Source: Cohnella sp.
Lineage (GTDB): Bacteria; Bacillota; Bacilli; Paenibacillales; Paenibacillaceae
DNA: 41,729 bases
Reading direction: 5' to 3'
Assembly: GCA_028287445.1 (NCBI GenBank)
Contig: JAQBPQ010000071.1
Span: 1-41,729 of the forward strand
Below are positions 1 through 20,891 of this stretch, piece after piece. The translations under genes were made by a program, and so were the position numbers. Within the stretch, counting starts at the first letter, position 1, and the number at the start of each line of letters is the position of its first letter. The notes below the pieces were generated by a model. It was not told where the DNA came from. It was given only the letters and a program-made list of their open reading frames with translations, and did no database searches.

Positions 1-100
1 ATGCCTGACAAGACACGATCAAACCGTGTTTTAGGTTGGAAATCAACTTCTTGCTCATGAACTCGCCTGATTTCAAAATGGAGTAATTATTTATATTCAT
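1..100 (-). CDS. nanE: N-acylmannosamine-6-phosphate 2-epimerase, 5' end only (partial)
   Basis: The minus strand is open from an ATG at 100 to the window edge, encoding 33 residues that end in HGLIVSCQA. That ending closely resembles the N-terminal first beta strand of NanE epimerases, which convert ManNAc-6-P to GlcNAc-6-P in sialic acid and ManNAc catabolism. A second in-frame ATG at 58 would give MSKKLISNLKHG and is nearer the usual NanE start. Neither ATG has an ideal ribosome site: GGAGGTG lies 16 nt before the first, and a weak AGGCGAG lies before the second. A good sigma-A promoter lies upstream at 139-166, divergent from the DUF4127 gene. The identification rests on about 20 residues, so it is a family recognition and not proof. 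The rest of the gene is outside the window. Confidence 0.6.
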   Translation of the reverse strand, partial: MNINNYSILKSGEFMSKKLISNLKHGLIVSCQA

Positions 101-138
101 CTCAATTGGTGAATTTCACCTCCAACCTCTTTGGGTTC

Positions 139-166
139 ATTATAGCAATAACCTTGTGTCTGTAAA
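139..166 (-). promoter_or_regulatory. sigma-A promoter for nanE
   Basis: On the minus strand, TTTACA (161-166) and a perfect TATAAT (139-144) are separated by 16 bp. The -10 lies inside the left arm of the inverted repeat shared with the divergent promoter. Confidence 0.6.
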
Positions 167-195
167 AGATATTTTTTTCATTTCTGGTCATATTT

Positions 196-226
196 TTGGA
201 TATTAAATTCAATCGTATGCTATAAT
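196..226 (+). promoter_or_regulatory. sigma-A promoter for the DUF4127 gene
   Basis: TATAAT at 221-226 has a weak TTGGAT -35 at 196-201 (19-bp spacer). It lies 24 bp before the start codon and just ahead of a GGAGG site. Confidence 0.55.
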
Positions 227-250
227 GAACCCAAAAAAGGAGGATTCCGG

Positions 251-1807
251 GTGAGTAGTATCGTTTATCTTCCATTAGATGAAAGGCCCTGCAATGCTAA
301 GTTTCCCAAACAAATCGCCGCTGCTTCAGACCTTGAGTTGATCTCACCTCCGCAGGCTTTGCTCGGTCAGAAGAAACTTCCGGCACACACAGCCGGCGTG
401 GTCGAATGGCTGCATGAACATACGATACGGGCAGATCATCTGATCGTGTCTTTGGACATGCTGGTATATGGCGGCATTGTTCCTTCCAGGCTTCATCATC
501 TTTCTTTGGAACAATGCCGGTTGAGGCTCCAAACGCTTGTGGATTGCAAAAGAAGAAATCCGAAGCTTCGGATCTTCGCATTTAATCTCATCATGCGTGC
601 TCCCGCCTATAACAGCAGCGATGAAGAACCCGATTATTATGCAGAGTATGGCGCCCAGTTAGCCCGTAACGGTTGGCTTCGAGACAAACATACACGCGAT
701 GGTTTAACTGAACAGGAGCAGTTTGAATGGGTGCAACTAACCGCCGGTATTCCGGAGCAAGTTTTTCAAGACTTTATCGGACGTCGACGAATCAATACCG
801 CGGTTAATCAGATGGCCGTGGATCTGACCTTTGAGGGTTGGATTGATTTCTTGATCATACCTCTCGACGACAACGCGAAATACGGTTACTCTTCCTCCGA
901 ACAGCGCCAGCTGCTCTCAACGGTCGAGGCCAAACAGCTTTTACACCGGGTTCATCTGTACCCGGGTGCGGATGAAGTCGGAAATACATTGTTTGCGCGC
1001 GTATTCTGTGAAATCAAAAACTATCAGCCAGAAATCTACATCCGTCACTCTTCGATCGCCGGCCCTCATGCCATCCCGAAATATGAGGATCGCAGCCTAG
1101 GAGAAAGCCTAAAATGCCAAATCACCGCTGCAGGAGGATTCATAGGTGATCAGGCCTCAGCTGCGGATTTCGTTCTCATGGTGAACTCCCCACCGGTCGG
1201 ACAATATGAAATGGCGGAGACGACGGACAATTTTGATCAGCGGCATGCCTCCTATTTTTCAGAGATCAATTACCGGGAATTCGTCCAAGCGATTAAACGA
1301 TATGCAGAAAAGGGCTATATGGTCGCACTTGCAGATGTTGCCACCTGCAATGGAGCGGACGAGCCGCTTCTGAAGCTGCTTGCCGGGATGGGGCTGCTGC
1401 CCAGCTTGTCCGCATATGCCGGATGGAACACTTCGGGAAACTCGCTAGGTACGGTCATTCCCCATGCGATTGTAGAATCCTACTACCGTAAAGTGAATGG
1501 CGCCGATGAGGCGAGCCGATCGCGGAACAGCGAGGCCTTTTATTTGTCCAGGCTTGTGGAAGATTGGGGTTATCAGGCTAAGATCCGAATGGATGTCGCA
1601 TACCATCACATAGAATCGCTCGGCGGCAATTATTTTGATGTCGAAGCCATTCATGATCAGGTATCGGAATTAGTACATGAGAAGATGGAAGCGTTTATCG
1701 CAGAATATTTGAAGGATATGCGTCCCGGCCGGATCCGGCTCGAGAATGTGGGGCTACCATGGAAGCGGATGTTTGAGGTGGGATTCGATCTTCGACTTGA
1801 GGGCTAA
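251..1807 (+). CDS. DUF4127 family protein
   Basis: This 518-residue protein starts at a GTG preceded by AAAAAAGGAGG at 8-nt spacing. The N-terminus (IVYLPLDERPCN) is the signature of DUF4127, a family of about 500 residues with no established reaction. No signal peptide or membrane segment is visible, so it is probably cytosolic. A conserved-looking LIIPLDDNAKYG segment lies mid-protein and may form part of an active site. The gene is divergent from the probable nanE and shares its mirrored promoter sequence, which suggests a role in the same amino-sugar pathway (inference). It is single and monocistronic, ending in a strong bidirectional terminator. Family assignment is confident and function is unknown. 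Confidence 0.9.
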   Translation: MSSIVYLPLDERPCNAKFPKQIAAASDLELISPPQALLGQKKLPAHTAGVVEWLHEHTIRADHLIVSLDMLVYGGIVPSRLHHLSLEQCRLRLQTLVDCKRRNPKLRIFAFNLIMRAPAYNSSDEEPDYYAEYGAQLARNGWLRDKHTRDGLTEQEQFEWVQLTAGIPEQVFQDFIGRRRINTAVNQMAVDLTFEGWIDFLIIPLDDNAKYGYSSSEQRQLLSTVEAKQLLHRVHLYPGADEVGNTLFARVFCEIKNYQPEIYIRHSSIAGPHAIPKYEDRSLGESLKCQITAAGGFIGDQASAADFVLMVNSPPVGQYEMAETTDNFDQRHASYFSEINYREFVQAIKRYAEKGYMVALADVATCNGADEPLLKLLAGMGLLPSLSAYAGWNTSGNSLGTVIPHAIVESYYRKVNGADEASRSRNSEAFYLSRLVEDWGYQAKIRMDVAYHHIESLGGNYFDVEAIHDQVSELVHEKMEAFIAEYLKDMRPGRIRLENVGLPWKRMFEVGFDLRLEG

Positions 1808-1811
1808 TCAA

Positions 1812-1868
1812 CATTTTCATATTATAAAGAGAACCTCGCCTTGAGGTTCTCTTTATAATATGAAAATG
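1812..1868. terminator. bidirectional terminator, 26-bp perfect stem
   Basis: Positions 1812-1837 and 1843-1868 are perfect reverse complements with a 5-nt loop. The GC-rich core GAACCTC/GAGGTTC is flanked by AT-rich arms that supply T-rich tracts both ways. It lies between two convergent genes. Confidence 0.85.
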
Positions 1869-1927
1869 GATATTTACCCCTAAATAATGTGTTTTTCCGG
1901 ATATTTTATCCGGTACAAACCATATTT

Positions 1928-3064
1928 TCATATATAGGCCAAGCCAGCCGTGTATGGAAACGGAACGGGAAATAGTCCTTTCATGGAACCCGTTCCTTCA
2001 AGCTCAGGATCCTTGGTACTGGCGCGATCGAAAACGATACGAACGAGCTCGTCTGCCGACAACGTCATTCGGTTCGTTCCTGCTTCCAGCAACCAACTCC
2101 TATCGTCCAACTCCTTCAACCGGATGGCAGCTGAGTTGCCGGCTGCCTTGCGATCAAGCCAAGGGCGTAGTTGGTTGACAAGTGCCTGACCGTCCACAAT
2201 ACGGATCGTGCCAACGTTATCTTCTTCCGACGACGGTACCATGGACAAACGGTTATTCAGCTCAGTTTCATGCCATGGCACGGGGAAATCGAGTCCCGAC
2301 AAACCAAATTTTTTGACGGCGTGAGCAGCTAGACACACCACCGAAGCCGCATCTCCGGCGTACTCCAGCACAAGACCGCTTCGCTGTGGATCGACCGGTA
2401 TCCCGAAAACGCCAAACGACCTCACCGTTCCTTCGTGTTCCGCTACCAATACCCGATGTTTCATCTTCAAACAGCTGGCCAGGGCTTCTACCTTGATCAG
2501 CATGGCAAGCTCGTTTATCCCCAGATCATAGCGAATGTCTCGTCGCGAAGCAGTCTCATAGATTTCGTGTATATCCGAAGCTGCCATTTCCCTGATCTTC
2601 AGGGTACATGGATCCTCGGAGGAGAGTAAGACATCCGCCGTCAATTGGTCCAACCCGTAACGGAGTGTCCGACCGAATGGTGCACAACCCGTTCGAGTAT
2701 ATAAAGTGCGACCTCCGGAAACCAGGAGTAACGATGCGCCCGCTTGACGTATGTAGCGGTATATTTCACTCAACACTTCACTTGCAATCCCTTTGCCCCT
2801 GGCATCTGGATGTGTGCAGACCGAGCCGAGCGAAAACACTCGCAAACAGGCATCCCCAATCCGGATGGTCATGGGAACAAGTCCCATGAACGATAGGAGT
2901 TTTCCTTCTTCAAAAGCTCCGAACGATACGTGCATCATCGAATCGGAAAAAATATACGGAAAGGCTTCCCCCATTGACGGCTGTGTGTCATCTCGGAACG
3001 TCGCATCCGATAAACGGACAGCCTCTTTCATTTCTTCATTTGTCAGCATACGTATAATCGCCAT
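1928..3064 (-). CDS. GNAT family N-acetyltransferase (two-domain, Eis-like length)
   Basis: This is a 378-residue protein. The N-terminal GNAT fold shows SVCTHPDARGKGIAS near residues 80-97, which contains the R-G-K-G-I-A acetyl-CoA pyrophosphate loop. The total length exceeds a simple GNAT (about 150-180 residues) and fits Eis-like enzymes with tandem GNAT and C-terminal sterol-carrier-like regions. Start ATG at 3064 has AGGGG 8 nt upstream. It is the last gene of a three-gene unit with the metallophosphoesterase (44-bp gap) and ADP-ribosylglycohydrolase. The acetyl acceptor is unknown. In context it could modify an amino sugar or amine, but that is inference. Confidence 0.85.
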   Translation of the reverse strand: MAIIRMLTNEEMKEAVRLSDATFRDDTQPSMGEAFPYIFSDSMMHVSFGAFEEGKLLSFMGLVPMTIRIGDACLRVFSLGSVCTHPDARGKGIASEVLSEIYRYIRQAGASLLLVSGGRTLYTRTGCAPFGRTLRYGLDQLTADVLLSSEDPCTLKIREMAASDIHEIYETASRRDIRYDLGINELAMLIKVEALASCLKMKHRVLVAEHEGTVRSFGVFGIPVDPQRSGLVLEYAGDAASVVCLAAHAVKKFGLSGLDFPVPWHETELNNRLSMVPSSEEDNVGTIRIVDGQALVNQLRPWLDRKAAGNSAAIRLKELDDRSWLLEAGTNRMTLSADELVRIVFDRASTKDPELEGTGSMKGLFPVPFPYTAGLAYI

Positions 3065-3107
3065 AACATTAACCCCTATCCGATTTGAGTCTTATGTGTT
3101 CGTGGAA

Positions 3108-4055
3108 TCATGACTGATGAGCCGGCTTCCTTCCCTCTGGCAGGTGGACGGGCTGCTCCACAACCTGTTCTCCGGTATCAAGCCGCAACCAGGTCCCAAA
3201 ACCGCGTTTTCCTTCTTCCAGCATAATGATACGCGCGCCATTTGGAAAGTCTGTCTTCATATAATTGTTATAACCTGTTTTTCTGCCATAGCATAATGAT
3301 ATCCCCATCAACTCTCCGTAATAATCATTGGCGTGATCGTGCCCTACGAAGGTGCCCGTCACGTTCCCTGCCTCCACCATAGCCGCGAACATGCCGGAAT
3401 TGATTCGCGGGCAGCATACTTCTTCATATTTGTTACCGCGGCAGACATGAAGATCCCAAACGTCGTTGTATTCCGGAATCGGAATATGGAAAAAAGCCAG
3501 TGAAGGCACGGGCAAACCACCATTAGCCTTCGCCAACGAGTGCGACTCACGGACAAACCAATCGATCTGGTCACGGGCGATGGCGGCATATCCTCCGATA
3601 CTCGGATCTGCATAATCACCAGAGTCGAGGAAGAACAATGCTTGATCGGTATGGCCGTTTCGTCCAACTAACCGGAGCAAGTAATTCCCGATCCCGGTTA
3701 TGGTTTCCGGCCCCCTTTGCGTGAGACCATATCGCACTTCACTCAACGAGGCCATCAATTCCCCACGAGTAATGCGCGCTTCCGAATCATGGTTACCGAA
3801 TACGACCGCCCACGGCGTACCCGCCTCCTCCATAGCGGCGACCGCGCTGCGGATTGACTGCTTCGGGTAGGTGCATGACTCATCTTCAATGACATCGCCG
3901 GTAATGACGACCAAGTCCGGCCGTTCCTGTACCAATACACGATCCATCAACTGCCTGGTTTTTCGATCAGCTTCATTGTTATCTCCCCAGTGAAGATCTG
4001 TGAACTGCACGATCTTAAAAAGGCCTTCCTCATTGTAAGACAATGGGCGCGTCAT
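3108..4055 (-). CDS. calcineurin-like metallophosphoesterase
   Basis: This 315-residue protein carries the full dinuclear metal motif set in order: FTDLHWGD (about 18-25), ITGD, GNHDSE, a FFHIP histidine and GHDHANDY. The layout (DxHW, GD, GNHD, H, GHDH) fits the Dcr2/Sia1-like bacterial phosphoesterase subfamily. No signal peptide is seen, so it is probably cytosolic and may hydrolyse a small phosphorylated metabolite. Its ATG follows the ADP-ribosylglycohydrolase stop by one base, and its GGGAGG site lies inside that gene, so the two are probably translationally coupled. Substrate unknown. Confidence 0.9.
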   Translation of the reverse strand: MTRPLSYNEEGLFKIVQFTDLHWGDNNEADRKTRQLMDRVLVQERPDLVVITGDVIEDESCTYPKQSIRSAVAAMEEAGTPWAVVFGNHDSEARITRGELMASLSEVRYGLTQRGPETITGIGNYLLRLVGRNGHTDQALFFLDSGDYADPSIGGYAAIARDQIDWFVRESHSLAKANGGLPVPSLAFFHIPIPEYNDVWDLHVCRGNKYEEVCCPRINSGMFAAMVEAGNVTGTFVGHDHANDYYGELMGISLCYGRKTGYNNYMKTDFPNGARIIMLEEGKRGFGTWLRLDTGEQVVEQPVHLPEGRKPAHQS

Positions 4056-4056
4056 T

Positions 4057-5364
4057 TTATTTCCTCCCGTAATCAGTTAATGCCATCGATCTTAAAGCCA
4101 GCTTACTGATCGTCTGAACGCCTTCGCCCGCTATATAACTCTCAATACGATCATGCAACGGTCTAGTCCACTTATCCGGTAGTTTCGCCGAGCCGTTGAT
4201 GATGCCGATAATCGAACCCGAACTCGCCCCGTTGCAGTCTGTATCCAAACCGAGCATCACAGCGATGGAGATCGTCTTTTCCAAATCACGTTCGCCATAC
4301 AACAACGCCAATGCCACAATCGCCGCATTATTAATCGTATGGACCCGATGGTAGCCTGAAAACTTCTCCAAGAGCCGGTCTCCTGCTTTTTCCCAATCCG
4401 GCTCTTCCTTTTTCAGCCCGAGTACCCAGTCCAATGCGCCATGAAGCCTTGATCGCTGCGGGATATGATCCATCCCCGCCCGAATAATCGCTTCCGGCTC
4501 TTCAAGGCCGAAAGCCGCAGCGTTCATGGCTGCAATAAACATCGCGCCGTAGATTCCGTTGCCCCTGTGAGAAACCGCAGCGTCTTGGTAGGCCATTCGT
4601 GCGGCCGATGCCGGATCATTGGGACAAATATATCCGTAATGGTCCGTCCGGATTTGTGCGCCTATCCACTCCCGGTACGGATTATTCAGGACGGCTACAT
4701 CAGGAATTGGAACTCCGGAGCACAAATTGAAATAAGCAGCTCTTTCCGCGGTATAAGTCATTAACGGGGGAAGATAAGTGAGCCACATTTGCGCTATATG
4801 GTCCGTAGTAAAATGCCTCCCGAAAATTTCCACCGTTTTCAATGCCAAAATGGTATAGTCCATATCGTCGTCTCTCGGCATCCCTGAACAGATCTCGATC
4901 GCATTTTGGGCATACTGCTCATGTTTCCACGGCTCGAGACCGACTGGCGGAAACCGTTCGGAAAAATAATGCCGCAACGGATAAGCTTCATATGAGATTA
5001 ATGTTTCCTTGATTTCTTCTCGCTTCCAACCTTCGACCGGTTTACCGAGAAGGCACCCTGCGGCGCGACCAAGCCAAGCACCTTGAATCCGGTAGAACAA
5101 AAGGTCTCGATCCACCGTACCCGGTTTTCGGAATTGTGTGTCCTTCTCAATAGAAGCCAAATCTGATGGCTCCACATACGGATAACCTTCCACGGCCTGC
5201 CAACTAGAGTGGCTCTGATAGAGTTCCCTACATTTGGCTGCCAGCTCGTCCTGTGATCCGGTAATCATGCGAAGATGATCAGGTAACGAGTTGAGATCAA
5301 CTCCCTGTTCCACCAATTGTACCAGCTCTTGGCGCAATATTTCCTCCCAATCGATCAAGTTCAT
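4057..5364 (-). CDS. ADP-ribosylglycohydrolase family protein
   Basis: The protein has about 435 residues. Family motifs are GAWLGRAAGCLLGKP (near 85), PRDDDMDYT (metal-binding acidic cluster) and GLDTDCNGASSGSIIG near the C-terminus. Such enzymes use two Mg ions to cleave N- or O-glycosidic bonds of ADP-ribose or related ribosides, but many family members act on unknown small glycosides. I chose the ATG at 5364 over the in-frame ATG at 5385 because GAGGAG sits 8 nt before 5364 and nothing ribosome-like precedes 5385. About 70 residues precede the catalytic domain and are not recognised. First gene of the operon with the phosphoesterase and acetyltransferase. Substrate unknown. Confidence 0.88.
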   Translation of the reverse strand: MNLIDWEEILRQELVQLVEQGVDLNSLPDHLRMITGSQDELAAKCRELYQSHSSWQAVEGYPYVEPSDLASIEKDTQFRKPGTVDRDLLFYRIQGAWLGRAAGCLLGKPVEGWKREEIKETLISYEAYPLRHYFSERFPPVGLEPWKHEQYAQNAIEICSGMPRDDDMDYTILALKTVEIFGRHFTTDHIAQMWLTYLPPLMTYTAERAAYFNLCSGVPIPDVAVLNNPYREWIGAQIRTDHYGYICPNDPASAARMAYQDAAVSHRGNGIYGAMFIAAMNAAAFGLEEPEAIIRAGMDHIPQRSRLHGALDWVLGLKKEEPDWEKAGDRLLEKFSGYHRVHTINNAAIVALALLYGERDLEKTISIAVMLGLDTDCNGASSGSIIGIINGSAKLPDKWTRPLHDRIESYIAGEGVQTISKLALRSMALTDYGRK

Positions 5365-5381
5365 TGCCAACACTCCTCTCC

Positions 5382-5546
5382 TCATTTATCCAAACCGATA
5401 AACTCCCGATATATCCGATAATACTTCGGATCGACCTGGTGAGGGCTCATGTAGTGATTAAAACTGAAACTAGTGAAATTGCTCACATAGGGCTCAACTA
5501 AATCGACCGAACAATTATTCCATAACAGGCTTTGTACTTCAATCAT
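5382..5546 (-). pseudogene. 54-residue orphan open frame, probable gene remnant
   Basis: This frame is open from ATG 5546 to TGA 5382, immediately before the ADP-ribosylglycohydrolase gene. It encodes a protein-like, aromatic-rich sequence that includes VEPYVSNFTSFSFNHYMSP and ends YREFIGLDK. No Shine-Dalgarno site precedes it, and in-frame stops lie just upstream, so it looks like the surviving 3' end of a decayed gene and not a genuine small protein. The parent family was not recognised. It could also be a translated leader coupled to the next gene, since its TGA lies 18 bp before the chosen start. Confidence 0.4.
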
Positions 5547-5623
5547 TCATAGGCTATCATAAGAGTTGACAACGGTTTCATTTTGACCTACTTCAAAACT
5601 AAGAATAGAAAGGAACGCGCCCA

Positions 5624-6439
5624 ATGTTGTGGGAAAACTTAACGGTTAAGCAATTTGAGAAAGCAGTTGTGTCCACCAATCGCATGTGTGTTTTACCAAT
5701 CGGATGCCTGGAAAAACACGGCGATCACCTTCCTCTAGGCACGGACATGATGATCGCGAGGGCAATTGCAGAAAAAGCTGCAGAACTTGAGCCTTGTATC
5801 ATTTTCCCCTATTATGTCTTCGGCCAGGTCTCAGAGGTCAGGCATCACCCGGGCACTGTAGCGCTCAGCAGTGATTTGCAGATGCGGCTTCTGAACGAAA
5901 CGGTAACTGAGATCAGGCGTAACGGTTTCGATAAAATTGTTCTGGCGAACGGGCACGGCGGGAACAACAATTGGCTGAAGTATTTTGTACAGACGATGTT
6001 GGATGAACGAAAAGATTATGTAGTGTACTCTTATGATTTGTGGGAATTAACAACCCATCAATTACAGCACCTGGAAAATCATTTCGAAACACCCGAAAAT
6101 TATGGGCACGCGGATCACATGGAAACGTCCGAAATCATGCATATCGACCCGTCGCTCGTATATATGGATAAATTAAATCCCGGTGAGTGGAATCCGACGG
6201 GCCGAGGACGTTGGCTAACTGAGGAGAATGTAGCCGCAGGCATTCACTGGTATATGGAATATCCCAATCAAATCGCCGGAGATCCTTCTCTATCCACGGC
6301 GGAATATGGCAAAACGTACATCGAATTTTGTGCGGCTAATTTTGCCAAGACCATCAAGAGAATCAAAGAAGACGAGACGGTGTTGAAGCTTCAGACCGAA
6401 TTTTTCGACCTTTGTGACAGTGTGTCGAAGATTCGCTAA
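5624..6439 (+). CDS. creatininase family amidohydrolase
   Basis: This 271-residue protein shows the family metal-site motifs: LPIGCLEKHGDHLPLGTD (about 24-41), HHPGT, LANGHGGNNNW and HADHMETSEIM. The fold hydrolyses cyclic or linear amides (creatinine, formamidopyrimidines, mycofactocin precursor). The specific substrate cannot be read here. AAAGGAA lies 7-8 nt before the ATG. A TTGACA at 5566-5571 may be its -35, but no convincing -10 was found. It is transcribed alone, between two minus-strand operons, and ends at a shared hairpin terminator. Neighbouring glycosylhydrolase and dehydrogenase genes suggest action on an amide of a sugar-like compound (inference). Confidence 0.9.
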   Translation: MLWENLTVKQFEKAVVSTNRMCVLPIGCLEKHGDHLPLGTDMMIARAIAEKAAELEPCIIFPYYVFGQVSEVRHHPGTVALSSDLQMRLLNETVTEIRRNGFDKIVLANGHGGNNNWLKYFVQTMLDERKDYVVYSYDLWELTTHQLQHLENHFETPENYGHADHMETSEIMHIDPSLVYMDKLNPGEWNPTGRGRWLTEENVAAGIHWYMEYPNQIAGDPSLSTAEYGKTYIEFCAANFAKTIKRIKEDETVLKLQTEFFDLCDSVSKIR

Positions 6440-6448
6440 AAACGAAAG

Positions 6449-6495: not shown

Positions 6496-6504
6496 CATGG
6501 TCGC

Positions 6505-7344
6505 TTAATCCGGAATATCCACCCACCGAAACGGTGTTTCGGCCGCTCTTAGACCATATTCAATAATGGAGATGATGGCTATGGTTTCGGATTCGAGGAC
6601 CATTGGCTTGCCGGTTTCAAAAAAAGCAACCATGTTCCTCATGAAAGGACCGAAGTAATCCGACTCTACCTTGATCAATTTGGCGTTGCCTGAGGAATAA
6701 TTCACCGCCATACTGAACGGGCATTCCCACCCAAAATGACGGAGCTCCGCCTGTCTCCCGTCAGCGAATTCGATCAATAAAGCTGGTGAATTCGTTGTAC
6801 CGAATGACATCACCCGTTTCGGGTTGCTGCCCATTAACGAGACGATTGGCTCAATTTGATGTATGGAGTAATTCTCGAACCTGCCGGGTCCGATACTGGC
6901 AATGGTTTCGACAGTTTGCCGGTCGGCATCCGCATACTCCGTTGCAAACCGAAGAGCGGAACTGGAGTACATCGGGGTGTTATGTTGATGGGCCAGTTCG
7001 AAAAGATCTAATGCCGTTTTTCTGTCGGGCGCGAACGTTTTATCAATATAGGTTGGTTTTCCCGATCGTAAGGGCAGCTGCGACAGCTCCTCATGAAACT
7101 GCGGATGATCGGGGGACAGAACAATCAGGTAATCACTTTTTTGTACCACCTCGTCGATCGAGTCCAGCAGCTCAATCCCTCTTTTCGCACACCATTCGGC
7201 GTTCGGAGTGCCGGTCGGAGAGTCTATCTTACCGTAGGCATAAGCCACTTTCATCTGCCCACCCGATGCCTCTTCGATCCATTCCGGATATTTCTCAGCG
7301 TGCCACTCATCGAGGAAATAATCGATAAAACCTATTGTTTTCAT
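6505..7344 (-). CDS. divergent Gfo/Idh/MocA-like oxidoreductase
   Basis: This 279-residue protein shares the family layout (Rossmann-like half, then mixed alpha/beta half ending ETIAIISIIEYGLRAAE) but is shorter than the usual 330-390. The N-terminus lacks the GxGxxG dinucleotide loop, and the family EKP lysine motif reads IDKT (GKPTYIDKT near residue 97-105). The lysine is kept. Catalytic-region SIHQIEPIVSLMG replaces the usual DxxxH segment. Start ATG 7344 follows GGGGAG at 8 nt. It is 21 bp downstream of a canonical family member and is probably co-transcribed with it. It may be a partner subunit, or use cofactor differently. Confidence 0.7.
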   Translation of the reverse strand: MKTIGFIDYFLDEWHAEKYPEWIEEASGGQMKVAYAYGKIDSPTGTPNAEWCAKRGIELLDSIDEVVQKSDYLIVLSPDHPQFHEELSQLPLRSGKPTYIDKTFAPDRKTALDLFELAHQHNTPMYSSSALRFATEYADADRQTVETIASIGPGRFENYSIHQIEPIVSLMGSNPKRVMSFGTTNSPALLIEFADGRQAELRHFGWECPFSMAVNYSSGNAKLIKVESDYFGPFMRNMVAFFETGKPMVLESETIAIISIIEYGLRAAETPFRWVDIPD

Positions 7345-7365
7345 CTGACCTACTCCCCAGTCCGA

Positions 7366-8424: not shown

Positions 8425-8486
8425 GTGGGTTCCTCCTAATTGTTCTTTGCACCTAGCTTAGCACGTTATGAATTTTTGTTCCATAT

Positions 8487-10221: not shown

Positions 10222-10247
10222 GGCACTCTCTCCTCTTTTATTCACGT

Positions 10248-11309: not shown

Positions 11310-11334
11310 GCCCATGTCTCCCTTTTATATGATT

Positions 11335-13871: not shown

Positions 13872-13903
13872 CCCCATCGCCTTTCCGTTATCGCATCCAA
13901 TCG

Positions 13904-14773
13904 TCAATAAAGCTTGTCCGCCACGGAAAGCGCCGTTTGTTCCAGCGATTCGCCTGACGTCTCCTTCTTCATCGACAACAGCGTGGTCAAAATGTTCAGC
14001 AAGTGGATTTGCGTGAATTTCGTCGACAAAGCCCCGCCCTCCGTCGGCATCTCTCGGGACGGAACCAGCAACACGGTATCCGCATGTGCGGCGATCGGCG
14101 AACGCAGATGGCTGGTCAGACAGATGACGTCCGCGCCGTTCTTCTTGGCTTGGCGCACCGGATCAACCAGATCGCGCGTGCTGCCTGAGGTAGAGATGCC
14201 GAACACCAAGTCCCCTTGCTTTACCAGCGCGGCGGACATGGCAATGATATGCGAATCCCGATGCGCTTCGACATTCATGCCGATCCGCATGAGCCGATAG
14301 TGCAGGTCCAGCGCTGTAATACCGGAAGAACCAACGCCGTAAATGAATATTTTATGGGCGTCGAGCATTTTGCTCACCGCTTGTTTGAGATTGTCCACAT
14401 TCACGAGATCAAGCGTGTTCTTCAGCAGTATCTCATGCTTCATCGTCACTTTACGGGCTACGGTCAGCACATCGTCTTCGTCTTCGATTTCCATGTTCGA
14501 AAGAGAAGGCGGCCGATCGACCAAGTCCTGCGCAACCGAAAGTTTAAATTCATGAAATCCTCGAAAACCAAGTTTACGGCAAAACCGGATCACGGAGGTT
14601 TCCCCGACACCCGCTTGTTCGGAAAGATCCGTGACGGTGGCCAGCACCGCTTCCTCCGGATTGCTACGGACGAAATCCGCCACTTTCTTCTCGGCCTTCG
14701 TCAAGGAAGAGTAAATGCTCGATATCATAAGCAGCGTGTTCGACTGGTTCAGTTTCGGACCGACTCTTGCCAT
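13904..14773 (-). CDS. MurR/RpiR family transcriptional regulator
   Basis: This is a 289-residue protein. Residues about 10-85 form the HTH_6 DNA-binding domain (SLTKAEKKVADFV, then GVGETSVIRFCRKLGFRGFHEFK). A C-terminal SIS sugar-phosphate-binding domain shows IYGVGSSGITALDL and GISTSGSTRDLVD. The family senses phosphorylated sugars such as MurNAc-6-P and amino-sugar phosphates. As first gene of the catabolic operon and directly downstream of the importer, it is the probable pathway regulator, perhaps acting on the operons nearby (inference). Promoter at 14808-14836. Confidence 0.92.
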   Translation of the reverse strand: MARVGPKLNQSNTLLMISSIYSSLTKAEKKVADFVRSNPEEAVLATVTDLSEQAGVGETSVIRFCRKLGFRGFHEFKLSVAQDLVDRPPSLSNMEIEDEDDVLTVARKVTMKHEILLKNTLDLVNVDNLKQAVSKMLDAHKIFIYGVGSSGITALDLHYRLMRIGMNVEAHRDSHIIAMSAALVKQGDLVFGISTSGSTRDLVDPVRQAKKNGADVICLTSHLRSPIAAHADTVLLVPSREMPTEGGALSTKFTQIHLLNILTTLLSMKKETSGESLEQTALSVADKLY

Positions 14774-14807
14774 ATCCCATCACCGCTTTTCTCTTTATCT
14801 TACATAC

Positions 14808-14836
14808 AGAATAGATGATTACATGGGCAATGACAA
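14808..14836 (-). promoter_or_regulatory. sigma-A promoter for the RpiR-led operon
   Basis: Minus strand TTGTCA (14831-14836), 17-bp spacer, TATTCT (14808-14813), located 35 bp before the regulator start. Confidence 0.55.
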
Positions 14837-14959
14837 GCAAATCCAGGCAAGACGTTTCTTCTTTCTCAGCCAAAAAAGAGGATTTCTCCACCCATTTGTG
14901 GCAGCTTTCTGCCAGTCAATTCATGATCATTTCCTATTTTCTGCCTGCAAACAAAGCTT

Positions 14960-15000
14960 AAAAAAAACCTTGGTTCGGACAACCGTCCGACCAAGGTTTT
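14960..15000 (-). terminator. Rho-independent terminator of the peptide-type ABC operon
   Basis: AAAACCTTGG-T-TCGGAC pairs with GTCCGACCAAGGTTTT across an AACC loop with a single bulged base. On the minus strand a run of seven T follows. It lies 7 bp after the last transporter gene. Confidence 0.9.
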
Positions 15001-15006
15001 GGGATT

Positions 15007-15981
15007 TCAGAGCGGAAAATGGCAAGCGACTTGCCGATCCGGTCCCAGCGTCTCCAGCTTAGGCTCCTCCACCCGGCAGCGCTCCTGTGCGAACGGGCAC
15101 CGTGTATGAAAACGGCAGCCGGACGGCGGGTTAGCGGGAGAAGGAACATCCCCTTGCAGGATGATCCTCTCCTTCGTGCGATTCGGGGAAGCTTGCGGAA
15201 TGGCGGACAAAAGTACTTTGGTGTAAGGGTGCATCGGACTGGCGAACAAATCGTCGGTCCTCGCCACCTCGACCATTTTGCCCAAATACATGACGCCGAT
15301 CCGATCCGAAATATGCCGCACCACATTGAGTCCGTGTGCGATAAACAAATAAGTTAGACCCAAATCCTTCTGAAGTTTCATCATCAGGTTCAGCACCTGC
15401 GACTGCACGGAGACGTCCAACGCCGACACGGCCTCATCCGCGACGATGAATTTAGGATTCAGCGCAATGGCCCGAGCGATGCCGATCCTTTGCCGCTGGC
15501 CGCCGGAAAACTCATGCGGGTAGCGATTCCGGCGGGTAATGTCCAAGCCCACCAGCTCCATCAACTCGACCACCCGATCTTCGACCTCTTTGGCCGACAT
15601 CCGGCGATGCACGCGCAGAGGTTCTCCGATGATGTCTTTCACGAGAAAACGGGGGTTCAAGGAGCCATATGGATCCTGAAATATAATTTGCATTTCTTGG
15701 CGAAGCCGTCGCAACTCGCCTGTTCCGACTCGCGCGATATCTTGTCCGCCGAACTTTATCTCGCCGCCGGTAGCACTCTTGAGCTTCAGCAAAACGCGAG
15801 CTAATGTGGACTTTCCGCAGCCGGATTCTCCTACCAAACCGAAGGTCTCCCCGGCCCGGATCCCGAACGAAACATCGTCAACCGCCTTTACTTGACCGAC
15901 GACACGATTGAACAGCCCGGTTTTGATCGGAAAATACTTCTTCACATGATTTACTTCCAACAAATATGGCTGCTGGCTCAC
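15007..15981 (-). CDS. oligopeptide-type ABC transporter ATP-binding protein (OppF-like)
   Basis: This is a 324-residue protein. Walker A is GESGCGKS, the signature is [16 protein letters not shown], Walker B is [12 protein letters not shown], and the H-loop is IAHGLNVV. The C-terminal oligopeptide extension has [17 protein letters not shown], a cysteine pattern often linked to an iron-sulfur or structural site. The start is GTG, overlapping the stop of the preceding gene (GTGA), with GGAGGTG 8 nt upstream. It is last in the importer operon and forms the ATPase heterodimer with the preceding gene product. In the walker region GHGLN replaces the more common SHDL. Confidence 0.93.
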
Positions 15982-17036
15982 GAATGAGTCACCTCCGGTC
16001 GGCTTCCGATCGTCACCTTGGTTTCCACCCTGTTCGGCTTGCCGGGTCTTGGATCGTCTTCCCCGGTATCATCCAGCCAGCAGGCCGCCTTATGCCCGCT
16101 CACGGACTCCCTGAGCGGCGGTTCATTGGTGCGGCACACATCCATCGCATACGGGCAGCGAGGGTGAAACCGGCACCCGGAAGGCACCTTGCTGAGTGGG
16201 GGAATGGATCCTTTGATCGTATACAACTCTCCGCCCCGTTCGCCTTCCAGGCCGGGGATCGACCGTAAAAGCCCGATTGTGTAAGGATGACGGGGTCGAT
16301 TGAATATTTCCGAGACAGTCCCTTCTTCGACAACCGCTCCGGCGTACATAACCGCGATGCGGTCGGCGACTTCCGCCGCAACGCCCATGTCGTGCGTAAT
16401 GAGCAGCATAGACATCCGAAACTCGGTTTTCAACTGCGAGAGCAGCTCCAAAATTTGGGCTTGGACGGTTACGTCCAGCGCTGTCGTCGGTTCGTCCGCG
16501 ATAAGCAGCTCCGGATTGCAGGCCAGCGCCATCGCGATGACGACCCGCTGGCACATGCCCCCGGACATTTCGAACGGATATTGTTTGGCTCGTATTTCCG
16601 GGCTGGGAATGCCTACTTTCCGGAGCATATCCACCGATTGCCGCCAAGCTTCTTTTTCCGGCAATTTCTTGTGGGTCCGCAATGTCTCGGCAATTTGTTC
16701 CCCGACCGTGAATACCGGATTCAACGCGGACATCGGATCCTGAAAAATCATAGTGATCCGGTTGCCCCGGATTTTGAGCATTTCATTCTGCCTTTTGGTC
16801 ACCAGATCTTGACCGTTAAAAAGGACCTGGCCGTCCTCGATAATGCCGCCGGCATAATCGATCAGCCGCATCACCGAGAGGGCGGTGACACTCTTGCCGC
16901 TTCCCGATTCTCCGACCACACAGAGGGTCTGACCTTTTTCCAGATTCAAAGTAACGCGGTCCGTCGCTTTTACCAAACCATTGTCCGTCAGAAAGCCGGT
17001 TGTCAAATTCCGGATTTCGAGTATTTTCTCCGCCAT
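15978..17036 (-). CDS. oligopeptide-type ABC transporter ATP-binding protein (OppD-like)
   Basis: This is a 352-residue protein. Walker A is GESGSGKS, the signature is [16 protein letters not shown], Walker B is [12 protein letters not shown], and the H-loop is ITHDMGV. The C-terminal motif is [25 protein letters not shown] lies 8 nt before the ATG, and the first 34 bp overlap the end of the permease gene, so both reading frames are used there. It pairs with the OppF-like subunit at the cytosolic face of the importer. Confidence 0.94.
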
Positions 17037-18001
17037 TTGGCCAGCCTCCTTTGGGGAATCGTCGTCTTTTTGGGGTCTAATCCGTCCCGTATGCCATCAC
17101 CGATGAAGTTGACGGCCAGCACGACGATCAAGATGCACAAGCCGGGATATAGCGCCAGCAGCGGATTCGTCAGCATAAACTCCTGCGCATTGCTCAGCAT
17201 AAGCCCCCAGCTGGTTGCCGGCGTTTGTACGCCCAAGCCAAGATACGAAAGAGCCGATTCGCTCAGAATCGCCCCCCCTACCATCAAAGTCGCGTTGACG
17301 ATGATGGGGGCAGACGCGTTACGCAGAAGATGGCCGAAAATGATTCCCCAGCTGGATACCCCGATCGCTTTGGCCGCCTCTACGTACTGCATCTCCCGCA
17401 ACTGAAGGTAAGTTCCGCGAACGAGACGCGCCACTCCCATCCAACTGGTAAACGCAAGGATCATGATCATATAAGACACTTTGGAGCCGAAAATGGCTAA
17501 TATCAAAATATTAAAAAACAGCAAGGGAATGGAATTCATGACGTCTACCAGACGCATGAAAATCGTGTCCACCCACCCGCCGAAATATCCGGAGATCGCG
17601 CCGATCAGGGTACCGACTACCACGGATACGAGAGCAACGAGGAAGCCGACCGTGAGGGAAATGCGGGTGCTATAGAGCAGCCGGGCAAAGATATCCCGTC
17701 CAAGTTCATCTGTCCCGAGCAAGTGTCCGCCGGTTCCGGCGGGAAGATTCGGGAACATCATATCGATCCGCGTAGGATCATAGGGAGTAAGCCATTTGGC
17801 CAATAGGGCGGCGAACACGAAAATCAGTAAAATAATAAGCCCGGTAACCGCCAAAGGATTGTGCATGAATTTCTTCCAAGCCGTCTTCCAAGGTCCAGGA
17901 GGACGTTTCTCGACAACCGTAATTTGGGGTCCCGTCGGTGTGCCTTGCGCCGTGTTCCAGGTTTGCTCGGAAACGGGCTTCTCAAGTTTCGCATCTGTCA
18001 T
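17003..18001 (-). CDS. oligopeptide-type ABC transporter permease (OppC-like)
   Basis: This is a 332-residue integral membrane protein. The N-terminal region of about 40 residues is cytosolic, then a first helix (AVTGLIILLIFVFAALLAKW), then LLGTDELGRDIFARLLYSTRISL, characteristic of OppC/DppC, and five further helices. The EAA loop reads VEAAKAIGVSSWGIIFGHLLRN, the coupling helix to the ATPases. GGAGG lies 9 nt before the ATG, which overlaps the preceding stop (ATGA). Confidence 0.94.
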   Translation of the reverse strand: MTDAKLEKPVSEQTWNTAQGTPTGPQITVVEKRPPGPWKTAWKKFMHNPLAVTGLIILLIFVFAALLAKWLTPYDPTRIDMMFPNLPAGTGGHLLGTDELGRDIFARLLYSTRISLTVGFLVALVSVVVGTLIGAISGYFGGWVDTIFMRLVDVMNSIPLLFFNILILAIFGSKVSYMIMILAFTSWMGVARLVRGTYLQLREMQYVEAAKAIGVSSWGIIFGHLLRNASAPIIVNATLMVGGAILSESALSYLGLGVQTPATSWGLMLSNAQEFMLTNPLLALYPGLCILIVVLAVNFIGDGIRDGLDPKKTTIPQRRLAKWRRKYSKSGI

Positions 18002-18969
18002 GACGAGGTTCCTCCATTGCGTCCCAATTGTACCCGAGGGTCAACGACAGCGTACAGAATATCCGCAAACAGATTACCGATGATGACGAATACCGAGACC
18101 AGCAACGTTATGGCCATCAGGACGGAATATTCACGCGCGACTGCCATTTGCACGAACAATCGGCCCATGCCCGGCCAGTTAAATACGCTCTCCGTCAATG
18201 CCGCTCCCCCTACGAGGATGGACAGGTCCAGCCCTAGAATCGTGATGATCGGGATGAGCGCATTCCTTAATGCGTGACGGAACACGACCTTGCCTTCTTT
18301 TAATCCTTTCGCACGAGCGGTCCGGATGTAGTCCTGATCCAATACCTCAAGCATACTGGCACGAGCATATTTGGAATAGGAAGCCAAGAACCCGAGCGTC
18401 AGCACCGTGACGGGGAGAACCAAATGCATGAACAGATCTGCGAGATTTCCTTCCTTCCCCATCGTCCACATATCGGACAAAGGCAGCCATCTATGCTTCA
18501 ACGCAAAATATTCCTGCAAAATAATACCGAACCAAAAAGTCGGCATGGCGAACCCTAGATAAGCAATGATGTTTGATGTCTGGTCGGAAAGACCGTACTG
18601 TCTGGTACTGTTGTATATTCCCCAAGGAATGGCAATAACCAAGGAGAATAGCCAGGCCGCACCCATGAGAACCATCGTATGACCGACGGTCGGCCATAGG
18701 ATCTTGCCCACAGCGATATGATTTTTGAAGGTATACCCAAGATCTCCCTTGAGCATATTGCCAAGCCAAATAAAATATTGAACGGGTACCGGTTTATCAA
18801 GCCCCAAGTTATGCGCTTGAACCTTGGCCGCCTCCTGTGACAGTGAAGGGGAGAGATAAATTTTCGTAGGCCCGCCCGGCGCTGCATGGATGAGCGCAAA
18901 ACTAAGCAAGGATATCAAGAACAAAACCAAAACGGATTGAATAATACGGCGTATCAAAAACTCGGTCAT
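17998..18969 (-). CDS. oligopeptide-type ABC transporter permease (OppB-like)
   Basis: This 323-residue membrane protein opens with LIRRIIQSVLVLFLISLLSF, the typical OppB first helix, followed by HAAPGGP and LGLDKPVPVQYFIWLGNMLKGDLG. The EAA-type loop is YIRTARAKGLKEGKVVFRHALRNALIP. About six membrane helices are visible. AAAGGGGG lies 7 nt before the ATG. It is separated from the binding-protein gene by a stable hairpin, then is tightly coupled to the OppC-like gene. Confidence 0.94.
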   Translation of the reverse strand: MTEFLIRRIIQSVLVLFLISLLSFALIHAAPGGPTKIYLSPSLSQEAAKVQAHNLGLDKPVPVQYFIWLGNMLKGDLGYTFKNHIAVGKILWPTVGHTMVLMGAAWLFSLVIAIPWGIYNSTRQYGLSDQTSNIIAYLGFAMPTFWFGIILQEYFALKHRWLPLSDMWTMGKEGNLADLFMHLVLPVTVLTLGFLASYSKYARASMLEVLDQDYIRTARAKGLKEGKVVFRHALRNALIPIITILGLDLSILVGGAALTESVFNWPGMGRLFVQMAVAREYSVLMAITLLVSVFVIIGNLFADILYAVVDPRVQLGRNGGTSS

Positions 18970-18991
18970 CTGGAATCCCCCTTTCCCGAGA

Positions 18992-19023
18992 ACAGGGGAA
19001 GGGCCTCATGGGCCTTCCCCTGT
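18992..19023 (-). repeat. stable intercistronic hairpin (14-bp perfect stem, no U tract)
   Basis: Positions 18992-19005 and 19010-19023 are perfect reverse complements around a 4-nt loop. On the minus strand no T run follows, so it is more likely a 3' end stabiliser than a full terminator. It lies between the binding-protein gene and the first permease, where such hairpins raise binding-protein levels over membrane subunits. Confidence 0.75.
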
Positions 19024-19047
19024 ATCAGATGGCTTTATGGTATTTGA

Positions 19048-20790
19048 TTACTTCTTGTCAGACCACCAGTTGATGATGTGGAACAGATAACCATAAGCCA
19101 GGGTAGATTCCGGTTTGTCTTCATCCGCCCAGTGAACGGTAGCATTATCGACAACTTGCGGAAGACCGTATTGATACAAAAATACATATGGCAGATCGGT
19201 GGAAATTTCCTTGCCGATTTCTTTGTAGATGGCTGCACGCGCGGTTTTATCGACGGTTTGTTGACCTTTTACCCACAAGTCGTCCAGCTTTGTGTTTTTA
19301 TACCAGCCGCTGTTTTGACCGGTCGGCGGGAAGTACTTGGAGGAGAAGATGCTCTCTCCGTCCGGATCCGGGTTGTTGAGGGACCAGGACAGCAGCAGTG
19401 CCGGGAATTTGCCCGGAGTTACGTTTTGGTCGATCCAAGTGGCGAAGTCGATGCCTTTCGGCGTCACTTCGATCCCTACGTCTTTGAGGTTTTGCTGAAT
19501 GACGGCAGCAACTTGCTCGCGGCGGCTGTTACCTGCGTTGTACTGCAGCTCGAACGAGAATTTGTGTCCGTCTTTCGCGAGGATACCGTCTTTGCCGGCT
19601 ACCCAACCGTCTTCCTTAAGCAGGCTCTTCGCCTTCTCCGCATCATAAGTGTAGTTAGTCGCTGCGTCGCCCGGGTCGGCCCAACTGCCCGGCAGAAACG
19701 GCGAGTTCATGAGCTTGCCTGTTCCCTTCAGTACGTTGTCGACCATCCCCTGACGATTGATGGCATAGGCGATAGCTTGACGAGTCTTCTGGCCTTTGAA
19801 TGGGGAATATTTGTCCGGGAAGTTCGCGTCTTTGAAATTGAAGCCCAAGTATTCGTATTGCGGTCCCGGCGCCAAAATGACGCTCAAGTTTGCACTTTTC
19901 TTAACCGCTTCGATTTGCGTGACCGGAATCGCTTCGGTCATTTGAGTATCGCCTTTGATGATCGCTTGTACTTCCGTGTTTTGGTCGGCATATTGCTTAT
20001 AAATGATCTTGGCGATGTGCGGCTTTTTTTCACCCCAGTAATTCGGATCCGCATCCAGCGTAATATGTTGGCCTTGGGTCCATTCCGTCCATTTCCATGG
20101 TCCGTTCGTGACCGTTTTGGCTGGATCGATGCCGTAAGCGTTCTTTTGCAGATCTTTAAGCGGTACATCCTTCAAGATGTGTGCGGGAACGATCCCGGTT
20201 ACAAGAGCATTCAGAAATGGAGCATAGACTTGTTTAAGTACGATCTCTACTGTTTGATCGTCGATCTTGTTTAACTTATCGACTTTATCAAAGCTGCTGA
20301 TTCCGGGGGATCCGGCAGCAGGATTCTTGACGGTATTGATGAAATAGATGAGATCATCCGCATTTACCGGTTGGCCGTCGCTCCATTTGGGCGTCGACTT
20401 CAGCTTTATCGTGTAGGTTTTGCCGTCCGCACTGACTGTCGGAAGCTCAGTTGCGAGAGACCATGGTTCAACGGTAACATTGGCGTTACGGTCGTAATCA
20501 AAAAGATTGGCATAAAGTAAGTTTTGGATGTCACCGGATGCCGTATCTTGCACATACAACGGATTGACGTTTACGATATCCGAGAACGTGCTGATCGTAA
20601 TTGTTCCGCCGTCTACCGGGCCTGCAGGCGCTGCGCTGGCGGTAGGTGACGCGGATGCGGACTGGCTGGCCGGCGCGCTGGCCGAGGCCGAAGGCGACGA
20701 TGCATTGTTTTTGTTGCCCGAACAACCGACTAGCAGGCCCCCTACTAAAGCGATTGCGGTGAAGCTCGTTAACCACTTCTTTTTACTCAC
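19048..20790 (-). CDS. peptide-type ABC transporter substrate-binding lipoprotein (SBP family 5)
   Basis: The mature-size precursor has 580 residues. I chose GTG 20790 because AAGGAGG lies 8 nt upstream. The lipobox LLVGC is at about 20-24, followed by a low-complexity Ser/Ala/Pro linker, then the family-5 fold (ADDLIYFINTVKNP, VTNGPWKWTEWTQGQHITL, AIAYAINRQGMVDNVLKGTG). The family captures oligopeptides, dipeptides, nickel, heme, and also glycans and glycopeptides. It is the first gene of the importer operon, with a promoter at 20862-20891. The catabolic genes downstream suggest a sugar-containing ligand (inference). Confidence 0.93.
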   Translation of the reverse strand: MSKKKWLTSFTAIALVGGLLVGCSGNKNNASSPSASASAPASQSASASPTASAAPAGPVDGGTITISTFSDIVNVNPLYVQDTASGDIQNLLYANLFDYDRNANVTVEPWSLATELPTVSADGKTYTIKLKSTPKWSDGQPVNADDLIYFINTVKNPAAGSPGISSFDKVDKLNKIDDQTVEIVLKQVYAPFLNALVTGIVPAHILKDVPLKDLQKNAYGIDPAKTVTNGPWKWTEWTQGQHITLDADPNYWGEKKPHIAKIIYKQYADQNTEVQAIIKGDTQMTEAIPVTQIEAVKKSANLSVILAPGPQYEYLGFNFKDANFPDKYSPFKGQKTRQAIAYAINRQGMVDNVLKGTGKLMNSPFLPGSWADPGDAATNYTYDAEKAKSLLKEDGWVAGKDGILAKDGHKFSFELQYNAGNSRREQVAAVIQQNLKDVGIEVTPKGIDFATWIDQNVTPGKFPALLLSWSLNNPDPDGESIFSSKYFPPTGQNSGWYKNTKLDDLWVKGQQTVDKTARAAIYKEIGKEISTDLPYVFLYQYGLPQVVDNATVHWADEDKPESTLAYGYLFHIINWWSDKK

Positions 20791-20861
20791 TTCTTCATCC
20801 TCCTTGTGATTATAAAACAAATAATGGTAATGAAGCACTCATGAAGCGCTTTCTTATGATC

Positions 20862-20891
20862 AATATACTATACTTAACAAAAATATCGCAA
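20862..20891 (-). promoter_or_regulatory. probable sigma-A promoter of the importer operon
   Basis: Minus strand TTGCGA (20886-20891), 18-bp spacer, TATATT (20862-20867). The rest of the 400-bp gene-free stretch from 20791 to 21190 holds the palindrome at 20913-20924 and the terminator near 21100. I see nothing else in it. Confidence 0.45.

Follow-up and report, generated by a model that had tools for sequence, protein, structure and literature searches.

Operons for the use of sialic acid (nan operons) combine an RpiR-type regulator (NanR), an ATP-binding cassette (ABC) importer, the epimerase NanE and a ROK kinase, and Bacillus subtilis rescues muropeptides through MurQ/MurR/MurP–NagZ. Here we analyse a complete contig of Cohnella sp. 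(the window, 41,729 bp, from an assembly of 78% completeness) whose left half brings together genes of these kinds with a gene for a DUF4127 protein; positions 1-20838 hold 18 complete genes and the start of nanE. We find it reasonably probable that this half is the Paenibacillaceae (Cohnella-like) version of a widespread, uncharacterised DUF4127/NanE system for amino-sugar catabolism. There are related precedents: the Listeria lmo2795-nanE operon unites RpiR, ROK, NanE and an oxidoreductase, and growth on N-acetylmannosamine (ManNAc) is nearly abolished without nanE (excerpts of PMC10667646); SpNanR, an RpiR regulator of Streptococcus pneumoniae, binds ManNAc-6-phosphate (ManNAc-6-P; excerpts of PMC12713135); and DgpA converts the glucoside of puerarin to its 3-oxo form (excerpts of PMC8563793).

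Linkage of DUF4127 to NanE

Among 60 genomes (the Cohnella genome itself and 59 relatives, labelled G), DUF4127 is present in 25, in 26 copies, and NanE lies within 6.7 kb of 24 of these copies. The two remaining copies are that of the window, at the contig edge, and that of G017, where NanE, RpiR and ROK sit on another contig. A NanE above the family cut-off occurs in all 25 genomes with DUF4127 and in 11 of the 35 others (p 1.4e-8, kinship ignored). Of 63 NanE copies kept, 25 are within 7.8 kb of DUF4127, 13 are within 4.2 kb of a NanA-like gene (>190 bits) and none is near both; five further copies lie within 7 kb of a close homologue of the FAD protein of the window. No NanA-like gene above 190 bits was found on the contig of any DUF4127-linked NanE. 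The association extends to a phylum sample of 299 genomes (own genome included), with NanE in 21 of 46 DUF4127 genomes and 11 of 253 others (p 3.5e-12, kinship ignored); it is weaker there than among the relatives, yet clear. DUF4127 also occurs in two of 14 control genomes, Thermus composti and Deinobacterium chartae.

The main argument for the role of DUF4127 comes from minimal operons. Loci L089 and L099 are compact operons of the order RpiR–DUF4127–SBP–ABC–ABC–NanE–ROK (SBP, solute-binding protein; the ABC genes being two permeases). L095 and L110 share this order, some members being missed by clustering and recovered with hidden Markov models (HMMs), and L074, L090 and L094 hold the same gene set in a different order. 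HMM and BLAST searches found no FAD, Gfo, TIM-barrel, metallo-beta-lactamase-fold (MBL) or Opp gene in these seven loci. The minimal operons look like nan operons with DUF4127 at the position of NanA, and from this we argue that DUF4127 supplies ROK and NanE with their substrate.

Recurrence was also measured around DUF4127 in named loci (labelled L), the best 80 of 428 DUF4127 relatives, which overlap the 60-genome set in part and several of which end early at contig edges. Families were counted with HMMs built from clusters of these same loci, and the counts therefore lean high; the controls were 20 fixed-position regions of 20 kb from 12 relatives. NanE was found in 53 loci, ROK in 46, RpiR in 41 and the ADP-ribosylglycohydrolase-fold and MBL proteins in nine each, all five being found in 0/20 controls. 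An ABC permease (54 loci) and SBP_bac_1 (47) each reached 4/20 controls; the DgpA-like Gfo (28), the FAD protein (23) and the TIM protein (22) each reached 1/20. Many distinct gene orders occur among the 80 loci, though related species are not independent. In the neighbourhood comparison proposed in the preliminary description, these families co-occur around DUF4127 across relatives and are absent or rare in controls; the cluster is a real, recurring system. A Pfam scan of 120 of the 185 candidate unclustered neighbours of DUF4127 revealed no dominant further family.

Closer relatives preserve more of the window's arrangement. Its RpiR is 78-92% identical to counterparts in 11 relatives, and FAD orthologues of 73-76% identity occur in seven of the 59 other genomes. 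RpiR, FAD, ROK, MBL and DUF4127 stand together in five of ten neighbourhoods compared (G008, with ROK split over two reading frames, G030, G002, G003 and G026); the Gfo, TIM, phosphoesterase, ADP-ribosylglycohydrolase-fold, GNAT and creatininase genes vary among these five. G022 keeps RpiR, FAD and MBL, with DUF4127 on a separate contig, G049 has the FAD gene alone at the corresponding place, and G001 carries a distant version with DUF4127, RpiR, ROK and FAD. G050 and G056 carry DUF4127 and the FAD gene on different contigs. A plasmid search with the FAD protein returned 54 records, every one below 60% identity. We also observed, in G056 (C1:1212676-1214975) and G048 (C23:533283-535582), contigs without DUF4127 on which NanE and a close FAD_oxidored homologue are 156 bp apart; the FAD enzyme may have a NanE-linked pathway of its own.

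The preliminary description had the gene set feed N-acetylglucosamine-6-phosphate (GlcNAc-6-P). A core of RpiR, ROK and NanE that leads from ManNAc-6-P to GlcNAc-6-P is well supported by the recurring linkage and by the Listeria and SpNanR precedents. The NanE of L069 conserves the lysine changed in structure 4utu, which we take to be the catalytic Lys66.

RpiR palindrome and importers

Upstream of rpiR (13904-14773, minus strand; a regulator of the RpiR/MurR type with HTH_6 and SIS domains), all seven cluster genomes carry a palindrome of the form GGAG-N5-CTCC, the best match agreeing at 8/8 positions in three genomes, 7/8 in three and 6/8 in G003. The window's copy (14876-14890, minus strand, 7/8 positions) lies about 116 bp before the gene; the distance to the start is 72-116 bp in six genomes and 25 bp in G022, where the rpiR frame is extended. 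Allowing up to one mismatch, 215,643 bases contain 132 matches. With leave-one-out matrices the rpiR site outscored every other position of the fetched region in four of the seven genomes; in the other three it ranked second, fourth and seventh. The nanE/DUF4127 or DUF4127 promoter regions gave expected counts of 0.02-0.11 in six genomes, and the palindrome also scored at the sugar-importer SBP gene of G002 (0.015), GFO2 of the window (0.03) and the ADP-ribosylglycohydrolase region of G030 (0.05). It did not score in the ADP-ribosylglycohydrolase regions of the window (0.18) and G008 (0.74), or in the Opp promoter regions of three of three genomes (0.9 to 2.9).

The matrices were then checked on loci outside the training set, L164-L172. 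The rpiR site was the top-ranked one in L165, L166 and L169; in L164 it came third, in L172 ninth and in L170 tenth. Sites at nanE or DUF4127 ranked third or better in L166, L167, L168, L169 and L171; L165 had them in fifth or sixth place and L170 and L172 had weak ones. The Opp regions of L164 and L171 had no palindrome. The palindrome upstream of rpiR is probably an autoregulatory operator. Its distribution suggests that most of these genomes have one RpiR regulon, which takes in rpiR and nanE/DUF4127 and leaves Opp outside.

A five-gene Opp importer with its own terminator, followed by an RpiR-led operon, had been described before and is what we see. All on the minus strand, the importer comprises an SBP_bac_5 solute-binding protein (19048-20838), OppB- and OppC-type permeases (17998-18969 and 17003-18001; BPD_transp_1) and OppD- and OppF-type ATPases (15978-17036 and 15007-15981; oligo_HPY). 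The intrinsic terminator after oppF (14960-15000, minus strand) is a strong hairpin with a T run, read in the sequence and unlisted by a generic scan. With this terminator and no RpiR palindrome upstream, the Opp operon is a separate transcription unit. The Opp promoters of the window (20860-20910), G008 and G003 have an A-run followed by TTTTGCGA, unlike the RpiR palindrome; this element is possibly a separate operator.

The idea that Opp is the importer of the system stands in part. Opp recurs beside the cluster in several genomes, yet the commonest importer is a sugar-type (SBP_bac_1) ABC transporter near nanE. Orthologues of the Opp binding protein (at least 66% identity) occur in ten of the 60 genomes, own included, three of which (G001, G028, G029) have no close RpiR. 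Opp directly adjoins rpiR in the window, G008 and G019 and is about 6 kb away in G003. In L068 (genome G042) a more distant Opp set adjoins the cluster, with permeases and ATPases at 40-55% and the binding protein at 28% identity; this is the only full set within the 80 named loci, L091 reaching just oppF, although all the Opp genes are present in the genome to which L091 belongs, G008. In G030 one contig begins with oppF and the rpiR contig stops about 0.8 kb past rpiR, which is consistent with, and does not prove, Opp–rpiR adjacency. A second operon in the Cohnella genome itself (L143, G000:C189, 2626-9445) has the order OppC-OppD-OppF-Gfo(DgpA-like)-NanE-TIM-ROK. Opp beside the cluster in some genomes, together with this second Opp–NanE operon, indicates that Opp-type importers can be partners, with the sugar type commoner; we have accordingly downgraded the Opp operon from core component to occasional partner.

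A proposed ManNAc route and its alternatives

Taken together, these results lead us to propose the following route. An ABC importer (sugar-type near nanE in many relatives, Opp-type in some genomes) would bring in a small ManNAc-containing glycoside, from which DUF4127 would release free ManNAc in the cytoplasm. The ROK kinase (11335-12279, minus strand; PF00480, 240 bits; best NCBIfam model ROK glucokinase, with a score under its cut-off) would convert ManNAc to ManNAc-6-P, and NanE would turn this into GlcNAc-6-P for central metabolism. RpiR would sense a sugar phosphate, probably ManNAc-6-P, and act at the GGAG-N5-CTCC palindrome to control the nanE/DUF4127 promoters as well as its own operon. 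The FAD, DgpA-like Gfo, TIM-barrel, MBL, ADP-ribosylglycohydrolase-fold, phosphoesterase, acetyltransferase and creatininase-type proteins would be modular accessories, most likely unmasking or redox-rearranging modified forms of the sugar. What we observe is the gene content, the recurring linkage, the terminator, the conserved palindrome and, in a relative, the conserved catalytic lysine of NanE; substrate, DUF4127 chemistry and inducer are what we infer here. It is likely that NanE receives an amino sugar of the ManNAc type from the system, and the route as a whole, from import through DUF4127, ROK and NanE under RpiR control, is the overall explanation that we consider best and fairly probable. 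That DUF4127 is the enzyme producing the free (amino)sugar is a view to which the balance inclines slightly, and its specific assignment as a glycosidase acting on a ManNAc glycoside is somewhat less likely than not.

The DUF4127 protein itself (251-1807, plus strand, 518 residues) matches PF13552 with 520.8 bits against a gathering score of 27 over residues 4-512. No signal peptide is seen by eye, and the protein looks cytoplasmic. Its AlphaFold2 model is confident (pLDDT 95.3, pTM 0.94). Foldseek gave no global match in the PDB, the best scores in the 50 rows shown being TM ≤0.25 by query and ≤0.31 by target with rmsd ≥13.5 Å, and phmmer against the PDB gave nothing better than E 0.16. An alignment of 61 DUF4127 sequences has no invariant Lys, no invariant His and seven invariant Arg; the lack of the first two argues against a Schiff-base aldolase, and the arginines fit an anionic ligand. 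Searches of open-licence PMC full text found no mention of DUF4127, PF13552, IPR025394 or pfam13552.

Several observations weigh against the ManNAc route. In those PDB searches (phmmer and Foldseek) DUF4127 matched no protein of known activity. At the phylum scale NanE is absent from 25 of the 46 DUF4127 genomes, a looser link outside the order, and 20 of the 63 NanE copies are near none of DUF4127, NanA and the FAD gene. In the divergent nanE/DUF4127 promoter region of the window (101-250) the best palindrome (107-121) is weak and overlaps the nanE ribosome-binding site, as in G003; the presumed nanE of G002 has no upstream palindrome (expected count 1.2), and the rpiR genes of L167 and L171 have a poor site. 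Genome G019 lacks both DUF4127 and NanE, so its RpiR cannot serve ManNAc-6-P of this route; the 20 kb read there (L164) retain only Opp, RpiR (90%), TIM, phosphoesterase and GNAT, a reduced version of the cluster. Eight loci (L100, L102, L105-L108, L115, L118; seven Paenibacillus and one Fontibacillus) pair DUF4127 with glucosaminate-type genes, and HMMs detect NanE in none of them. By clustering, a DgaE-family ammonia lyase and a sugar-kinase-like protein occur in 8/8, an EF_0837-type deacetylase in seven, and a DgaF-type aldolase and a GH130-like protein in six each, the families being assigned from one representative per cluster. The EF_0837 (507 bits, cut-off 432) and DgaF (386, cut-off 300) representatives pass; that of the DgaE family passes its subfamily model (532, cut-off 385) and misses the DgaE equivalog (420, cut-off 600), and the kinase and GH130-like representatives score under their cut-offs. 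DUF4127 may therefore serve amino-sugar acid routes as well. Finally, the glycoside hydrolases near DUF4127 vary: a hexosaminidase-type (beta-N-acetyl) GH3 in four loci (NCBIfam cut-off passed in the one tested, L112), GH84 in L124 with the same cluster in L127 (both Thermoanaerobacterium), GH20C in L113, GH38 in L129, GHL10, and the GH130-like proteins. These neighbours favour N-acetylhexosamine or mannoside glycans, not a single glycan, and the hexosaminidase-type GH3, GH84 and GH20C among them count for the route; their variety argues against taking one common substrate for granted.

A rather unlikely alternative to the ManNAc route is redox deglycosylation, in which the FAD protein (12300-13907, minus strand; FAD_oxidored, PF12831, 341 bits) and the DgpA-like Gfo proteins would oxidise C3 of an N-acetylhexosaminide and the TIM barrel (or DUF4127) would eliminate the aglycone. 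Reduction and C2 protonation would then yield GlcNAc or ManNAc, with NanE rescuing the mannose-configured product. In PDB searches GFO1 (10248-11315) and GFO2 (7366-8424), both Gfo/Idh/MocA oxidoreductases on the minus strand, are closest to DgpA, with E-values (7e-58 and 1e-53) more than 15 orders of magnitude below those of the first entry not named DgpA (5e-32 and 3e-26), and by this similarity they appear to be DgpA-family proteins. The formation of a 3-oxo puerarin glucoside by DgpA (excerpts of PMC8563793) speaks for such chemistry, as do the joint occurrence of Gfo in 21 of the 22 loci that hold the TIM protein and the Gfo–NanE–TIM–ROK set of the second Cohnella operon. The minimal DUF4127–NanE–ROK operons, without FAD, Gfo or TIM, count against it. 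So does the TIM-barrel isomerase/epimerase-like protein (9349-10299, minus strand; AP_endonuc_2), which at E 1e-3 matched 3tva, Art22 and two epimerases in the PDB and not the DgpB-C entries; by sequence it is not a recognisable DgpC. For the FAD protein (AlphaFold2 pLDDT 92.1, pTM 0.92) the fold search found generic FAD folds only (rows shown: TM ≤0.34 by query, ≤0.40 by target). The earlier proposal of a single substrate shared by the FAD, Gfo, MBL, ADP-ribosylglycohydrolase-fold and creatininase-type proteins stays conjectural; the minimal operons do without them.

It is unlikely that DUF4127 acts on the ManNAc-GlcNAc repeat of a cell wall polymer. Such repeats occur in the wall polymers of P. 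alvei, P. polymyxa and L. sphaericus, and SLH domains bind pyruvylated ManNAc polymers (both from excerpts of PMC6801904). Ten long open reading frame (ORF) regions of the phylum sample bear on this: nine gave a DUF4127 reading by motif, and the three scanned contained one true fusion, to SLH. This distant DUF4127 (L178:752-3385, plus strand) has a signal peptide (by eye) and three C-terminal SLH domains and is apparently secreted. A 750-residue ORF of G001 was rejected as a fusion, its ~240 leading residues looking by eye like an out-of-frame reading. The seven invariant arginines would fit an anionic substrate, and a CsaB match at E 1e-20 occurs in 46/46 DUF4127 genomes against 199/253 others (p 9e-5, kinship ignored) and in 5/14 control genomes, both DUF4127-bearing ones included. 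On the other side, CsaB matches occur in 245 of the 299 genomes at a threshold looser than the curated cut-off, which 216 pass, and the G327 match (8e-27) does not look like CsaB; with CsaB so common and the threshold so loose, the association carries little weight, and phylogeny confounds it. SLH domains serve as anchors in many unrelated enzymes, the window's DUF4127 looks cytoplasmic, and GH38, GH84 or GH20C in some loci point to other glycans. The hint from the SLH fusion and CsaB is thus suggestive only.

A bolder version of the wall-polymer idea is more doubtful still: DUF4127 would be the founder of a new enzyme fold that frees ManNAc from secondary cell wall polymers built of (pyruvylated) beta-ManNAc–GlcNAc repeats. 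Some bacteria would secrete it and anchor it by SLH domains, and others would keep it in the cytoplasm, behind an ABC importer. The RpiR–DUF4127–NanE–ROK clusters would then represent a first route by which bacteria feed on, or recycle, the wall polymer that anchors the S-layer, and modified residues would fall to the DgpA-like and FAD enzymes. Open-licence PMC full text yielded no paper on a mannosaminidase, and searches on wall-polymer breakdown and on NanE with recycling gave, among the matches listed, no title describing a pathway of this kind. If the substrate is a ManNAc-containing wall polymer, the system would also reveal how the polymer to which the S-layer is attached is turned over in Gram-positive bacteria.

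Mere neighbourhood of unrelated operons on one contig is improbable. It would suit the spread of the genes over several units on both strands, the terminator that closes Opp and the Opp orthologues in the three genomes without a close RpiR, but the linkage recurs across Bacillota, is near-absent from controls and includes a palindrome common to several units. Least probable is the reading of DUF4127 as a sialate (nonulosonate) lyase that is not homologous to NanA and stands in for it in a sialic-acid operon, a reading which the operon position of DUF4127 and the lack of any NanE copy near both would suit, but which the missing invariant Schiff-base Lys and the missing sialidase-like protein speak against (no selected ORF of the 80 loci has two or more Asp boxes, by a regular-expression motif test only). 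With no NanA nearby and no Asp-box protein, sialate use was dropped. Muropeptide recycling was likewise set aside as the leading account, since NanE dominates and general scans called no window protein MurQ (no MurQ search was made elsewhere); the 'peptide-like ligand' and 'muropeptide' of the preliminary description are without direct support in this analysis. The GH3 proteins of four DUF4127 loci keep muropeptide recycling in play.

For the ManNAc route, the consequence is that DUF4127 gains a strong context, as a putative NanA-position enzyme feeding NanE. Because the family is so frequent in the phylum sample (46/299), solving its function would annotate many genomes.

The window and the closest known systems

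Scans of the window proteins against Pfam and NCBIfam profiles recovered each family named before, nanE in part and the third Gfo-like protein weakly. The nanE start (ManNAc-6-P 2-epimerase; 2-100, minus strand) comprises the first 33 codons, MNINNYSILKSGEFMSKKLISNLKHGLIVSCQA, ending LIVSCQA, and resembles full NanE N-termini in two close relatives; since the window is the whole contig, the gene was truncated by the assembly. Beyond DUF4127 follow, on the minus strand, a GNAT acetyltransferase (Acetyltransf_9, 1928-3064), a calcineurin-like metallophosphoesterase (Metallophos, 3108-4055) and the ADP-ribosylglycohydrolase-fold protein (ADP_ribosyl_GH, 4057-5385; PF03747, 164 bits). The creatininase-family amidohydrolase (5624-6439, plus strand; PF02633, 191.8 bits) falls under every NCBIfam equivalog cut-off (MftE 108 against 172, creatininase 96 against 235, IolN 64 against 245 bits). 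GFO3 (6505-7344, minus strand) is weakly Gfo/Idh/MocA-like (NCBIfam Gfo-type match 23 bits, no Pfam match) and accompanies GFO2 behind sugar ABC genes in three relatives (L165, L166, L169). The PhnP-like MBL-fold hydrolase (Lactamase_B_2, 8522-9334, minus strand) misses the curated NCBIfam PhnP cut-off (80.8 against 272 bits). Rfam had no match in the window at gathering scores. The right half of the contig (22974-41537) encodes a GGDEF-EAL protein, a CoatF protein, a ParB-like protein, an amidohydrolase and a signal peptidase, along with a second sugar-type ABC importer (26500-29893) and an aldehyde dehydrogenase with DUF779.

Compared with muropeptide rescue by MurQ/MurR/MurP–NagZ in B. subtilis, the likeness lies in the RpiR-type regulator and in the hexosaminidase-type GH3 of four DUF4127 loci; the window has NanE instead, and general scans called none of its proteins MurQ or MurP (no MurQ search was made elsewhere). 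The D-glucosaminate dga pathway (DgaE/DgaF) is approached by the eight Paenibacillus and Fontibacillus loci with DgaE-family genes, most with DgaF- and EF_0837-type genes; those loci differ in that they lack NanE and their DgaE-family protein is under the equivalog cut-off, and dga-type genes are not in this window. From DgpABC C-glycoside deglycosylation the locus shares the closest solved relative of GFO1 and GFO2, DgpA, and a sugar-isomerase-like TIM barrel, but this barrel is unmatched to DgpC and the NanE/ROK/RpiR core has no counterpart there.

With the Listeria ManNAc operon the system shares the linkage of RpiR, ROK and NanE (nanE partial in the window). As described in excerpts of PMC10667646, the Listeria operon differs in having a phosphotransferase system importer and a HAD hydrolase instead of an ABC importer, and it has no DUF4127, FAD, MBL or ADP-ribosylglycohydrolase-fold gene. 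With the sialic-acid nan operons the system shares the RpiR regulator, the sugar ABC importer, NanE, the ROK kinase and the exit at GlcNAc-6-P; it differs in that DUF4127 stands at the place of NanA and that further redox and hydrolase genes are added.

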